A stretch of 37,038 bases of DNA from Gemmatimonadaceae bacterium (GTDB lineage Bacteria > Gemmatimonadota > Gemmatimonadetes > Gemmatimonadales > Gemmatimonadaceae): positions 1-37,038 of the forward strand of contig DATLTC010000071.1 in NCBI GenBank assembly GCA_035533755.1, written 5' to 3'. Positions 1 through 5,623 of the stretch are shown one piece after another (the first letter of the stretch is position 1; the number at the start of each line of letters is the position of its first letter). Both the position numbers and the translations under genes were made by a program. Under the pieces are notes generated by a model. The model was not told the origin of the DNA. It saw nothing but the letters and a program-made list of their open reading frames with translations, and did not search any database.

Positions 1-183
1 ATTCGGATTCATCGGACTGAGCGAAACCTGCCGGAGAAGGCTCTGGGGAACGCGGCAGCGGAGATCGGGGCGGAGAGGCCGGCCCGATCTCACGGTCCGG
101 ACTCGATGCTTCACGGGCGCAGCCCCCACGCATTCCTCCGGTCGCTTCCGACCCATTCGTCGCATCCGTTCCTCGATTCTGAG
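1..183. repeat. Left copy of large palindromic repeat (5' end outside window)
   Basis: Two blocks here match the copy at 688-832. Positions 2-60 align with 701-759 and 124-183 align with 773-832, each with about 6 mismatches in 60 by eye. The unit ends in GATTCTGAG at 175-183, the same terminus as the right copy. Its other end should lie about 12 bases left of the window. Between the two blocks this copy has about 50 extra bases (61-123) that the right copy lacks, including a perfect 9-bp inverted repeat, GAGATCGGG at 61-69 with CCCGATCTC at 83-91. I see no credible gene in this stretch. Confidence 0.8.
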
Positions 184-257
184 AGACCCGCGCGATCGAG
201 ATGCGCGTTTCGATAGAATGATGACGCAGATATCTGGTGCCGAACCGATCCTGCGGT

Positions 258-719
258 ATGGCCACACGTCCCGGCGGGCTCATCGAAGAAGCGCTCACGC
301 ATTCGATCATCGGGGCGTTCTTCGAGGTCTATCACATACTCGGCTACGGCTTTCTCGAACACGTGTATATGCTGGCGCTCGAGCGCGAGCTGCTGGCCCG
401 CGGACATGCGGTCACGCGGGAACTGGGCGTCTCCATCAGCTACAAGGGCGAAGCGCTGACCTCGCAGCGGCTCGACTTCGTGGTGGATGGACGCGTGGTG
501 GTCGAGATCAAGTCCACGCACGATCTCAGCAAGGCCGCGCCGCGGCAATTGCACAACTATCTTCGCGCGACCGAATTGGAGGTTGGCTTGCTGCTGCACT
601 TCGGGCCGGAGCCAAAGTTCCATCGGCTCGTCTCGCTGAATGCCGAGCACCTGTCGCGGGGGAAGGCGCGTCGCGCCGAGCCGGCCGCTCAGAATCAGGA
701 TTCGGAGTCATCGAACTGA
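258..719 (+). CDS. GxxExxY protein, PD-(D/E)XK nuclease-like
   Basis: This is a 153-aa protein of the GxxExxY family (PDDEXK_3-type), whose biological role is not established. The signature GFLEHVY is at residues 31-37. A PD-(D/E)XK-like core follows: Asp73 in RLDFVV, then Glu83 and Lys85 in VVEIK, then a helix with QLHNYL near 97-102. All residues expected of the nuclease fold appear present. I chose the ATG at 258; an in-frame GTG at 237 would add seven residues. The last ten residues (from about 144) and the stop codon lie inside the right palindromic repeat, so the C-terminus is repeat-derived. The gene sits alone between two repeat copies, which suggests a cassette. Catalysis and mobility are inference. 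Confidence 0.85.
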   Translation: MATRPGGLIEEALTHSIIGAFFEVYHILGYGFLEHVYMLALERELLARGHAVTRELGVSISYKGEALTSQRLDFVVDGRVVVEIKSTHDLSKAAPRQLHNYLRATELEVGLLLHFGPEPKFHRLVSLNAEHLSRGKARRAEPAAQNQDSESSN

Positions 720-832
720 GCGAAAGCTGCCGGAACAGGCTCGGGGGAACGCGGCAGCGACGATCGGGCAGGCCCCACGCATTCCTCCGGCCGTTTCCGG
801 TCCGTTCGTCGCATCCGTTCCCCGATTCTGAG
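688..832. repeat. Right copy of large palindromic repeat with 9-bp terminal inverted repeats
   Basis: This 145-bp unit begins with CTCAGAATC (688-696) and ends with the exact reverse complement GATTCTGAG (824-832). The whole unit is an imperfect palindrome: its first ~55 bases match the reverse complement of its last ~55 at roughly 70 % by eye, so one strand could fold into a long bulged hairpin. It is in direct orientation with the copy at 1-183 and overlaps the 3' end of the GxxExxY gene. No transposase is visible beside it. Confidence 0.8.
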
Positions 833-891
833 CGGCTCACCTGGCGCGACGATCTCGAACGGCCGCCGATGCTCCGGCCGCCGCCGACAAA

Positions 892-927
892 AAACCGGTG
901 GCCGCACCGCCGTGCGACCACCGGTTT
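892..927 (-). terminator. Rho-independent terminator of the S9 peptidase gene
   Basis: The 10-bp perfect stem AAACCGGTGG (892-901) pairs with CCACCGGTTT (918-927). Read on the minus strand it is followed by a run of T residues. It lies 20 bp past the peptidase stop codon. Confidence 0.85.
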
Positions 928-947
928 CTCGTATGCCACCAACGCGA

Positions 948-3464
948 TCAGTGCGCGTTCATCGACGCGCTGCCCCCGTAGTTGTCGCCCAGGAAGTGCG
1001 TGGCGAAGAACTCCATCATCATCTCCTGCGCGTACGGGGCCATGTCGCCGTAGCCGTGTGGCTTCGGAGGATAGACCATCACCGAGAAGCGCTTGTGGGC
1101 CTTGATGAGCGCGTTCACCAACCGCATGGTGTTGGCCGGGTGCACGTTGTTGTCCATGAGACCCGTCTCGAGCAGCAGCGCGCCCTTGAGATTCGGCGCC
1201 AGCTCGACCGTGGTCGGCACGTGGATCTCGTACTTGGCGGTCGTGTCCGCCGGATCGCTGGCGGCCTGCGGGGTGCTTCCCCCCATGCGCCCGCGCCCGC
1301 CGCGGCCGCCACGTCCGGCGCCGGTGGCATTGGGCGATTCGATCTTCAGCCCGTGGTACTGCTCGCTCCAGTTCTGATTGTAGACGTTGTTGTCGTGGTT
1401 GCCCGACTCGCTCACGCCCACCTTGAAGAACTCGTTGTACGGCGGGAGGAGCATCGCCGCGGCGGTCTGGAACCCCCCGCCCGAGTGGCCGTAGATCCCC
1501 ACCCGGTCGAGGTCGATGTACTTGTGCTCGGCGCCCAGCTCCTGGATCACGTATTTCTTGTCGGCCAGCCCGTAGTCGCGCAGGTTGAGATAGCCGAACG
1601 TATCGTAGGCGCGCGACCGCTCGGGGCTGCCGCCGCGGTTGCCGAACGTGACGACCACGAAGCCCAACTGCGCCAGCCGCTGCTGCTGCGCGGCGGGCGA
1701 GAAGTTGAACACCACCGATTCGGTCTGCGGCCCCGGATACGTGTAGGTGATGATCGGGTACGATCTGGTGGAGTCGAAGTCGAACGGCTTCCACATCTCG
1801 CCCCAGATGTCGGTCACGCCGTCGGCGGCCTTCACGTGGAACGGTTCGGGCGGCTTCCAGCCCAACGTCTTGAGCCCCGAGATGTCCATCGTCTCGAGAT
1901 CCATCACCACCTTGCCGGTCTCGTCGCGGATCACGGCGCGCGGCGCCATGTCGATGCGCGAGTAGTTGTCCACGTCGTACTTGAAGTTGGGCGAGAGATC
2001 CGCCGTGTGCGTGGCGTCGCCGGCGTCCACGAGCGCGAGTCCGGTGCCGTCCAGATTGACGCGATAGAGATGGTGGTAGTACAGATCCTCATCCGGCTCG
2101 CGTCCCACGCCGTCGATCCAGGCCACGCCGCGCACCGAGTCCACCTTCACCAGGTCCTGGGCGCGCCAGGGTCCCGCGGTGAGGGCGTTCTTGAGCTTGC
2201 CGTCGTGCGAGTACAGGTAGTACTCGCCCCAGCCGGTGGAGTCGGACCACCAGATGAAGTCGCCGCCCGCCTTCACGTAGTGCGGCTCCTGCGTCTGCAG
2301 CCCGCCCCAGTCGCTCTTCTCCGTGAGGAGCGTCTTGATAGCGTGCGTTTTGAGGTCGACGTCGATCATCTCGAGTTCGCGCTGCGTGCGGTCGCGCCGC
2401 ACGAGACTCAGGACGTCGTGGCCCGCGTCCGGCCAGACGAGGTTCATGATCCGCTGGTCCTTGTACTTGCTCACGTCCAGCGGCGTCACCGACTTGTCGC
2501 CGAGGGTGTACGTGTAGAGTTCCACCTGCGCCACGTTCTCCTCGCCGGGCATCGCGTACGGGTACTCCATGAGCGTGGGACGCGGATTGGCCAGGTAGTT
2601 CACCAGGTAGAGGTCCTTCACCTTGCGTTCGTCCTGGCGCATGACCGCGAACGCCTTGGAATCGCGCGACCAGACCACGTTGGCCCGTACGCGCGCGTCG
2701 AGCGGCGGCGCGCCGCGGCCGCCCTCCGCGGTGCCCTCGCGGGCCAACAGCACCGCGGCCGTGTCGAGATAGCCGAACGTCCGCTTGATCTCGCCGTCGG
2801 TGGACACCTGCACGGTGTCCTTGGTGATCGTGTCGACGACGAACAGGTTGTTGTCGCGGGCGAACGCGAAGTGCGTGCTGTCGGGCGAGTAGTTGTGGAA
2901 ATCGCCGCCGCCGCGCCCGAAGAATCCGCCGCCGCCGCGCCCGCCGCGTCCCTCGGTCTCCCGCGTGGCCGGGCCGACGCGCCGGATGGCCTCGGTGGCC
3001 AGCGTCCACTCCCAGCGCGAGCTGTCGGCGTTGAACTCGAAGCTCTTGTGGTCCTTGCTCAGCGTGATCGTGGCGAACGGGAGATTGTACCCATCGTATG
3101 CGTGCCCCGACGCCGCGGTGAGCGCGGCCGCGAGCTTGGTGTGGTCGAACAGCGGCCGCTTGACCTTGAGCGCCGGCACCACGAGGAAGAAGGTGGAGCC
3201 GGTATGGTCCTTCCAGTTGTACCACATCGAATCGCTCTTGCCGATCCAGTGCGGATCGACCGCCGAGCTGTAGAGCACGGGGCGGAGCGCTTCGGGGGTG
3301 AACTTGTCGGCCAGGGCCCAGTTGGCCTGGTTGGCATGTGCGTGCTGGGCCGATGCCGGGGGCGCGACGGCGGCGAGCAGGGCGAACGCCGCCGCGGTGC
3401 AGAACCACCGCGACCACGGCCCACGGCCGAGGTGTGTGGGACAGGGGGGAACGGGGGCGGGCAT
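948..3464 (-). CDS. Exported S9 family prolyl oligopeptidase/DPP IV-like serine peptidase
   Basis: This 838-aa exported serine peptidase should cleave short peptides, with a DPP IV-type propeller before a C-terminal alpha/beta-hydrolase domain. A signal peptide covers about residues 1-41, ending in the cleavage-like PPASAQ. The catalytic triad reads Ser661 in GHSGGG, Asp771 in GLMDNN and His803 in KPHGYG, with spacing normal for S9. Two Gly/Arg-rich low-complexity loops lie near residues 168-190 and 713-729; these are unusual insertions for the family. The ATG at 3464 has GGGAG upstream. A longer open frame merges this with unrelated sequence and was rejected. The gene follows kup on the same strand after about 107 bp and ends in a good terminator. 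Substrate is unknown. Confidence 0.9.
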   Translation of the reverse strand: MPAPVPPCPTHLGRGPWSRWFCTAAAFALLAAVAPPASAQHAHANQANWALADKFTPEALRPVLYSSAVDPHWIGKSDSMWYNWKDHTGSTFFLVVPALKVKRPLFDHTKLAAALTAASGHAYDGYNLPFATITLSKDHKSFEFNADSSRWEWTLATEAIRRVGPATRETEGRGGRGGGGFFGRGGGDFHNYSPDSTHFAFARDNNLFVVDTITKDTVQVSTDGEIKRTFGYLDTAAVLLAREGTAEGGRGAPPLDARVRANVVWSRDSKAFAVMRQDERKVKDLYLVNYLANPRPTLMEYPYAMPGEENVAQVELYTYTLGDKSVTPLDVSKYKDQRIMNLVWPDAGHDVLSLVRRDRTQRELEMIDVDLKTHAIKTLLTEKSDWGGLQTQEPHYVKAGGDFIWWSDSTGWGEYYLYSHDGKLKNALTAGPWRAQDLVKVDSVRGVAWIDGVGREPDEDLYYHHLYRVNLDGTGLALVDAGDATHTADLSPNFKYDVDNYSRIDMAPRAVIRDETGKVVMDLETMDISGLKTLGWKPPEPFHVKAADGVTDIWGEMWKPFDFDSTRSYPIITYTYPGPQTESVVFNFSPAAQQQRLAQLGFVVVTFGNRGGSPERSRAYDTFGYLNLRDYGLADKKYVIQELGAEHKYIDLDRVGIYGHSGGGFQTAAAMLLPPYNEFFKVGVSESGNHDNNVYNQNWSEQYHGLKIESPNATGAGRGGRGGRGRMGGSTPQAASDPADTTAKYEIHVPTTVELAPNLKGALLLETGLMDNNVHPANTMRLVNALIKAHKRFSVMVYPPKPHGYGDMAPYAQEMMMEFFATHFLGDNYGGSASMNAH

Positions 3465-3571
3465 GGGACGGTCTCCCGGAGGCGAGGTGCGCCGGTGTGG
3501 GGGGGGACGGGGTGGGGATGCTGCGCCCACTGATTTGCGGGCGGGACCGGCGATTGGGAAGGGGGAGGACC

Positions 3572-5623
3572 CTAGAACTCCACCTGGGCGCCCAGCTCCA
3601 CCACCCGGTTGGGCGGGATGTTGAAGAACTCCGTTGCCGAGCGCGCGTTGCGCGACATCACCACAAACAGCTTCTTGCGCCAGCGCGCCATGTTGAGCGG
3701 CGCTCCGTCTCCGGTGCCCGGCGTGGTCACGGCGCCGGCGCGCGCGGCCCTGGGCGCGTCGTGCTTGCCGAGCACCATCACCCGCTCGCGGCCCAGGTAG
3801 AACGTGGTGTCGAGCGGTTTGGCCCGCAGGCCCAGTGCCCGCGCGCGATTGAGCACGTCGGGCACGTCGGGCGTCTCCATGAAGCCGTAGCGCGCCGTGA
3901 CGCGCCAGAACCCCTCCTCGAACTTCTCGATCGTGACCCGCTCGGCGGACGGCACCGAGGGGACTTCGAGGGTGAGGATGGACATCAGGATCACCTGGTC
4001 GTGCAGCACCTTGTTGTGCTTCAGGTGGTGCAACAGCACCACCGGCACGCCGTGCGGCGACGAGGTCATGAACACCGCCGTGCCGGGGACGCGGGTGGGC
4101 TTGCGGCGCGCCACGTCGCCGAGGAACAGGTCCAGCGGCAGCGCGCCCGCGTGCAGGACGTGGTTGAGCATCATCCGGCCGCGCTTCCAGGTGCTCATGA
4201 GCGTGAAGATGACGGTGCCGATGGCGATCGGCACCCAGCCGCCGTACTCGAGCTTCACGAGGTTGGCGCCGAGGAGCGACAGGTCGATGACGAGAAAGAC
4301 CCCGGTGAGCGCAGCCACGCGCCAGAGCGGCCACCCCCACTTCTCGCGGGCCACCACGAAGAACAGCAGCGAGGTGATGACCATCGTGCCGGTGACGGCG
4401 ATGCCGTACGCCGCGCTGAGCGCCGCCGACGACTGGAACATCAACACGAGCACGATCGTGCCGATGCGGAGCAGCTGGTTGACCTCGGGGATGTAGATCT
4501 GGCCGGCCTCGCGTTCGGACGTGTGCACGATCGTCACGCGGGGGGAGTAGCCGAGCTGCACGCTCTGCTGCATGAGCGAGAACGCGCCCGAGATCAGGGC
4601 CTGCGAGGCGACGATCGTGGCCAGCGTGGCCACGACGACCACCGGGTAGAGCAACACGCGCGGCGCCAGCAGGTAGAACGGGTTGGTGACGGCCGACGGA
4701 TCGCGCAGCAGCAGGGCGCCCTGGCCGAAGTAGTTGAGCAGCAGCGCCGGGAACACCACCGCGAACCAGGCCAGCCGGATGGGGCGGGGGCCGAAGTGCC
4801 CCATGTCGGCGTACAGCGCTTCGGCGCCGGTGACCACGAGCACGACGGCGCCGAGCACGAGGAATCCGGCCCCGCCGTGGGCGACGAAGAAGCGCACGGC
4901 CCACTGGGGATCGAGCGCCTCGAGCGTGCGCGGCTCGCGCAGGATCTCCGCTCCGCCGAGCACCGCGATCATCGCGAACCACACCGCCATGATCGGCCCG
5001 AAGAATCCGCCCACGCGCGACGTGCCGCGGCTCTGGAAGGAGAACAGCAGGAGCAGGATGAGGACCGTGGAGGCGACGACGACGAACGTGGACAGGTGCG
5101 GCGCGGCCACCTGGATGCCCTCGACGGCGCTGAGCACCGAGATGGCCGGCGTGATCATGCCGTCGCCGTACAGCAGGGCGGCGCCGAACAACCCCAGCAC
5201 CACCAGCGCGTAGCGCCGCCGCCGCGGGCTTGTGTCTCGGCCGTCGTGCAGCAGCAGCGCCAACAGGGCCAGAATGCCGCCCTCGCCGCGGTTGTCGGCG
5301 CGCATGATGAAGACGATGTACTTGATGCTGACGATCAGGATGAGCGCCCAGACGATGAGCGACAGCACGCCCAGCACGTTGGGGCGCGTCACGGCGATGC
5401 CGTACTCCGACCGGAAGCACTCGCGGAGCGCGTACAGCGGGCTGGTGCCGATGTCGCCGTACACCACGCCCAGCGCCGCCAGGGAGAGGAAGGCCAGGCG
5501 CCTGCCGGCGGGACGGAGCTCGACGTGCGATCGCGCGGCGGGAACGGCGCTGTGGAATCCGCTGGTCTCGGTGGCCGCTGCGGGCGCGGTCATCGATTCC
5601 GGACGCGATGGGTCAGCGGGCAT
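3572..5623 (-). CDS. kup: Low-affinity potassium transporter Kup (KUP/HAK/KT family)
   Basis: This 683-aa inner-membrane protein is a proton-coupled K+ uptake carrier. The N-terminal family signature GDIGTSPLYA is at about residues 56-65. About twelve hydrophobic segments follow through residue ~470, including the conserved DNRGEGG and YGDGMITPAIS stretches. A soluble C-terminal domain follows, as in E. coli Kup, and the length is slightly above the usual ~620-660. The ATG at 5623 is the longest start; an ATG 30 bp downstream (MTAPAA) is also possible, since the first ~40 residues are not conserved. It lies between padR and the S9 peptidase on the same strand; a hairpin separates it from padR. 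No c-di-AMP riboswitch-like element was recognised upstream. Confidence 0.95.
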   Translation of the reverse strand: MPADPSRPESMTAPAAATETSGFHSAVPAARSHVELRPAGRRLAFLSLAALGVVYGDIGTSPLYALRECFRSEYGIAVTRPNVLGVLSLIVWALILIVSIKYIVFIMRADNRGEGGILALLALLLHDGRDTSPRRRRYALVVLGLFGAALLYGDGMITPAISVLSAVEGIQVAAPHLSTFVVVASTVLILLLLFSFQSRGTSRVGGFFGPIMAVWFAMIAVLGGAEILREPRTLEALDPQWAVRFFVAHGGAGFLVLGAVVLVVTGAEALYADMGHFGPRPIRLAWFAVVFPALLLNYFGQGALLLRDPSAVTNPFYLLAPRVLLYPVVVVATLATIVASQALISGAFSLMQQSVQLGYSPRVTIVHTSEREAGQIYIPEVNQLLRIGTIVLVLMFQSSAALSAAYGIAVTGTMVITSLLFFVVAREKWGWPLWRVAALTGVFLVIDLSLLGANLVKLEYGGWVPIAIGTVIFTLMSTWKRGRMMLNHVLHAGALPLDLFLGDVARRKPTRVPGTAVFMTSSPHGVPVVLLHHLKHNKVLHDQVILMSILTLEVPSVPSAERVTIEKFEEGFWRVTARYGFMETPDVPDVLNRARALGLRAKPLDTTFYLGRERVMVLGKHDAPRAARAGAVTTPGTGDGAPLNMARWRKKLFVVMSRNARSATEFFNIPPNRVVELGAQVEF

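Follow-up and report, generated by a model that had tools for sequence, protein, structure and literature searches.

Structure of the cassette

A single nuclease-like gene lies between two palindromic repeats at one end of a Gemmatimonadaceae contig. This raises the question of whether gene and repeats together form a mobile cassette and, if so, whether the nuclease moves it. The window analyzed here is the whole contig, 37,038 nt in length and one of 103 in a genome of 3.25 Mb, and it starts inside the upstream repeat. The two palindromic units, U (195 nt) and D (145 nt), frame a PD-(D/E)XK nuclease-like gene of the GxxExxY family (TIGR04256, PF13366), giving a total cassette length of 844 nt. 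D occupies positions 688–832 of the plus strand, with terminal repeats CTCAGAATC at 688–696 and GATTCTGAG at 824–832. U covers positions 1–183 of the plus strand, its right terminal repeat GATTCTGAG lying at 175–183; a further 12 nt are found on another contig, C75, and the full unit spans C75:5800 to window position 183. CTCAGAATC and GATTCTGAG are perfect 9-nt terminal inverted repeats of the kind found in MITEs, and they form the ends of both units. Alignment of U with D gives 130 identities in 145 positions, with U longer by 50 nt in its middle. Both are palindromic: the self-complement scores of 70 (U) and 82 (D) were reached by 0 of 500 shuffles for each unit. Folding of single-stranded DNA gives weaker evidence than palindromicity, with z of −2.80 for D and −1.66 for the cut U. 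These results uphold the sequence-only reading, which had described a 145-nt imperfect palindrome with perfect terminal repeats at 688–832 and a second palindromic copy at about 1–183, with about 90% identity in two conserved blocks, the full length of that copy being 195 nt.

The GxxExxY gene runs on the plus strand from an ATG at 258 to a stop codon at 717–719 and overlaps D at its 3′ end: the frame extends into D for 29 nt and takes its stop codon from that unit. It is the sole gene between the units, and the cassette contains no transposase, as had been claimed. The right flank (833–947) is intergenic DNA with a terminator-like hairpin at 887–932 and is followed by an S9 peptidase gene. 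Window positions 948–5420 hold one minus-strand frame of 1490 aa, which may comprise more than one gene; its best DPPIV_N and Peptidase_S9 stretches cover residues 914–1360 only and leave the remainder unassigned.

The window contig begins within the repeat, and U therefore misses its first 12 nt there. C75 (L012) ends in the same 141 nt with which the window begins. This looks like an assembler overlap, and the two contigs probably adjoin, the assembly having broken within the repeat; such a break would be expected from a further copy of the sequence or from a strain variant. The C75 stretch might be taken for a third copy in the genome; we rejected this, as it is U itself seen through the contig overlap. 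A search of the whole genome returned no copies of the exact unit beyond U and D. Restriction of the repeat to this one place had been named as evidence against a mobile cassette; it applies to the exact unit within the source genome, but not to the element class. Because the genome holds only these two copies, the case for the window unit's own movement is made by one absent orthologue, described below.

The source genome carries a second GxxExxY gene (C26:983–1354), which is framed by a different palindrome, about 220 nt long and present on both sides of the gene (fold z −4.71); further solo copies of this palindrome family are present in the same genome. Contig C2 (L014, 1010–1800) contains four clustered units of another palindrome family without a GxxExxY gene, with an 84-nt core that is 92–96% identical.

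The GxxExxY protein

The cassette protein is a clear member of its family, scoring 108.5 bits against TIGR04256 (cut-off 35) and 111.3 bits against PF13366 (cut-off 22). A 49-row alignment reveals that the family-invariant residues are retained, including E34, D73, E83 and K85, in agreement with the core residues recognized earlier. The family is named only for its motif, and we found no stated role for GxxExxY genes. The AlphaFold model of the protein (pLDDT 88.6) has its nearest solved fold in Cas4 SSO0001 (Foldseek E 1.2e-4, VIA Z 9.8), and Hjc and other PD-(D/E)XK nucleases are also among the structural matches; a family-profile sequence search against solved structures gave no match. The modeled protein has the PD-(D/E)XK core fold, and its sequence has the D...ExK residues. 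The matches to Cas4 SSO0001 and Hjc are moderate and a fold alone is no proof of function, yet a Cas4/Hjc-like fold would fit a putative action on DNA ends or on structured DNA.

GxxExxY genes are present in 61 of 200 genomes sampled from Gemmatimonadota and also occur in many phyla. We make no claim of horizontal spread from the tree, in which labels group by phylum in part and for which the short alignment gives little resolution. A phage origin was rejected, since none of 50,697 phage records gave a match; matches were found in 8 plasmid records, and PHROG returned a single weak match of unknown function. PADLOC assigned three GxxExxY proteins to 0 families, that is, to no known anti-phage defence.

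Occupied, empty and deleted sites in relatives

A cassette-free orthologous site, which the sequence-only reading had proposed to look for, is found in the congener G001. Both genes flanking the window site are present in G001 and the cassette is absent: the aligned blocks are separated by 178 nt, against 987 in the source genome, and the S9 peptidase gene directly follows the left-flank gene. At the lepA site, G000 and G001 share a palindrome-gene-palindrome arrangement and G035 has a lone palindrome, a state for which deletion between direct repeats is another possible origin. Similar variation is seen in genus g23: at the orthologous sites, G049 has neither the GxxExxY gene of G023 nor one of the G023 solo palindromes. 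The G023 insertion is missing from G110, whose own gene occupies a neighboring site that is nearly empty in G023; G023 and G159 share one occupied site. Target-site duplications are unreadable at the congener sites, since the intergenic flanks are too diverged, and boundaries are not base-exact. Insertion polymorphism is well supported, and GxxExxY is its putative driver.

Relatives also contain gene-free and internally deleted copies. G037 holds at least seven related stretches, 83–99% identical where aligned and dispersed in different surroundings, which contain palindromic arms together with a GxxExxY gene that has lost its middle part. Among L203–L209 from this genome, several copies of the deleted element end in an IS-like outer terminal repeat, TAGTGGGTCAGTTT, and another transposase may have moved the copies with such ends. 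Similar truncated genes between matching words are found in G104, a member of a different family. G023 displays 123 forward and 125 reverse word pairs. All nine of the G023 sites that we read are palindromic stretches, mostly of about 65–260 nt; two of the nine share the terminal repeat of the single gene-bearing copy, and the word type of the solo palindromes is the same as in that copy.

Palindromic arms frame GxxExxY genes across phyla

To establish the extent of the association, we examined a Gemmatimonad set of 45 loci and a broad set of 72 drawn from many phyla, comparing the 400 nt upstream of each gene with the 400 nt downstream. A gene was counted as framed at an inverted-arm score of at least 36, with neighboring ORFs of 90–300 aa as controls. 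Arms frame 45 of the 72 GxxExxY genes in the broad set, as opposed to 1 of 140 neighboring ORFs (p 7e-26); the Gemmatimonad set gives 22/45 against 10/205 (p 5e-12). Palindromic arms are thus much commoner around GxxExxY genes than around neighboring ORFs, in line with the suspected association. By the scores used, 17 of the 72 broad and 11 of the 45 Gemmatimonad loci have no repeat.

The arms are commonly arrays of 8–10 nt words. In the broad set they consist mostly of tandem words such as ACGCGGATN, with a spacing peak at 9–10 nt. Left arms of the 45 framed broad loci contain CGGAT 75 times in forward and 7 times in reverse orientation. Relative to the stop codon, the median start of the right arm at these loci is −2 nt, and in 24 of the 45 it starts before the stop codon ends. 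The strand bias of CGGAT is absent in the Gemmatimonad set (8 vs 6), in which words of the CGGAG and CGGAC types are common. Nuclease clades differ in their word type (9/10 vs 0/7, p 4e-4), the clade labels being set by motif and by eye for few loci, and the loci treated as independent though related. The words are also linked to the presence of the gene: among the 200 Gemmatimonadota genomes, treated as independent despite their kinship, at least four CGGAG-type word pairs occur in 15 of 61 gene-bearing and 2 of 139 gene-less genomes (p 4e-7). G197 and G089 have 49 and 52 word pairs, respectively, and no GxxExxY match; the gene may have been lost, missed or unneeded in these two genomes.

Mismatches between the arms display no RNA-wobble strand bias (96 vs 111), which fits a DNA-level constraint on the arms, and we rejected an RNA-level element on the same absence of G-U bias. 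Rfam searches of seven sources gave a sole match, a Flavo-1 RNA in L122 (7646–7725), about 3 kb away from the GxxExxY gene and probably a coincidence. An intervening sequence of 23S rRNA was likewise rejected, as protein genes lie on both sides of the site and window positions 1–2332 have no Rfam match.

Comparison with known systems

RAYTs are Y1 HUH tyrosine transposases, whereas the cassette enzyme is predicted to have a PD-(D/E)XK fold and no Y1 HUH transposase is present. The likeness to RAYT/REP systems lies in one nuclease-type gene flanked by palindromes, accompanied by matching gene-free palindromes in the same genome. Flanking by palindromes is present at the window locus; dispersed copies are found for the C26 family and in G023, but not for the window unit. 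Our comparison draws on publications on RAYT (TnpA-REP) and REP/REPIN elements (PMC2817692, PMC3116915, PMC8266576). REPs, according to PMC3733652, are 20–40 bp long and tagged GTAG or CGTC. By contrast, the palindromes described here measure about 65–260 nt and their arms are arrays of 8–10 nt words; the window units, 145 and 195 nt long, have CTCAGAATC and GATTCTGAG at their ends. The sequence-only reading had proposed a RAYT/REP-like layout with an unrelated enzyme, and the modeled fold and its structural matches agree with this description. Since enzyme and repeat type both differ, the cassette is not a member of the RAYT/REP family.

The elements also resemble MITEs and their parent insertion sequences: they are short, have terminal inverted repeats, are found present or absent at orthologous sites, and have gene-free and internally deleted derivatives. 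They differ from these in that the gene-bearing copy encodes no DDE or other known transposase and has no readable target-site duplication. Cas4 and Hjc provide the nearest solved folds, but the cassette is without CRISPR genes; one cas4 gene is labeled GxxExxY by a model search in PMC8934634. The association of GxxExxY genes with palindromes is absent from the open-access literature searched, where two papers name GxxExxY in passages that do not bring in palindromes and the repeat words themselves matched nothing, and subscription papers or an NCBIfam comment may contain an earlier description.

Possible mechanism and alternative explanations

We consider it fairly probable that the cassette is one of a class of mobile elements that are palindromic and widespread, with GxxExxY action as the proposed mechanism. 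The gene-bearing copies, putatively autonomous, would encode a small Cas4/Hjc-like PD-(D/E)XK nuclease, with the gene enclosed either by the arms of a single palindrome or by a pair of complete palindromes; palindromes that consist of the same words but lack the gene would be non-autonomous, MITE- or REPIN-like copies. GxxExxY may recognize the array of repeated 8–10 nt words together with the hairpin or cruciform formed by the arms, and nick or cut DNA at the arms, after which host repair or replication would copy or move the element. The observations that support the element class are the framing, the words common to gene-bearing and gene-free copies, the site polymorphism, the deletion derivatives and the association of word type with clade. 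By analogy with RAYT/REP systems, we infer that GxxExxY acts on DNA hairpins and is what mobilizes the palindromes. The stronger proposition, that GxxExxY is the mobilizing enzyme of a new autonomous element class, in which a PD-(D/E)XK nuclease alone acts with host repair and the word-array ends coevolve with clade, is a tentative one that we would put forward with some doubt.

Movement of the palindromes could instead be the work of an unrelated transposase or of hairpin replication errors, leaving GxxExxY as trapped cargo or a regulator. The IS-like outer terminal repeat on several G037 copies is consistent with such passive transport, as is the richness of G197 and G089 in word palindromes without the gene. 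We nevertheless find it unlikely, given that this kind of framing, with differing word sequences, recurs around one gene family in many phyla, that nuclease clade is associated with word type, and that GxxExxY is the sole cassette gene. PD-(D/E)XK homing enzymes exist, and the contrast at lepA between the lone palindrome of G035 and the palindrome-gene-palindrome arrangement of G000 and G001 would agree with a homing-type nuclease gene that invades existing palindromes, these spreading by other means. The lepA state is, however, explicable by deletion between direct repeats. At the window and G023 gene sites the congener lacks gene and palindrome together, so that no resident palindrome is seen there, and homing appears decidedly improbable. 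Only slight credence can be given to stable loci with a host role in regulation, repair or defence, at which local duplication makes the repeats and deletion makes the polymorphism. Such stability would account for the two copies of the window unit and for the site occupied in both G023 and G159, but it is at odds with the dispersed similar copies in G037, the many dispersed palindromes in G023, the occupation of different sites in congeners and, for a defence role, the lack of a PADLOC match.

The recurrence of this arrangement across phyla, with related palindromes lacking the gene dispersed in some of the gene-bearing genomes, suggests a poorly recognized kind of mobile DNA. GxxExxY genes are common, and a link to palindromic repeat families would provide a testable function for both. 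We know of no case in which the PD-(D/E)XK fold drives transposition alone; if GxxExxY drives movement of the palindromes, it would add an enzyme fold to transposition. These elements would then offer a second system for asking how bacterial palindromic repeats spread and persist.
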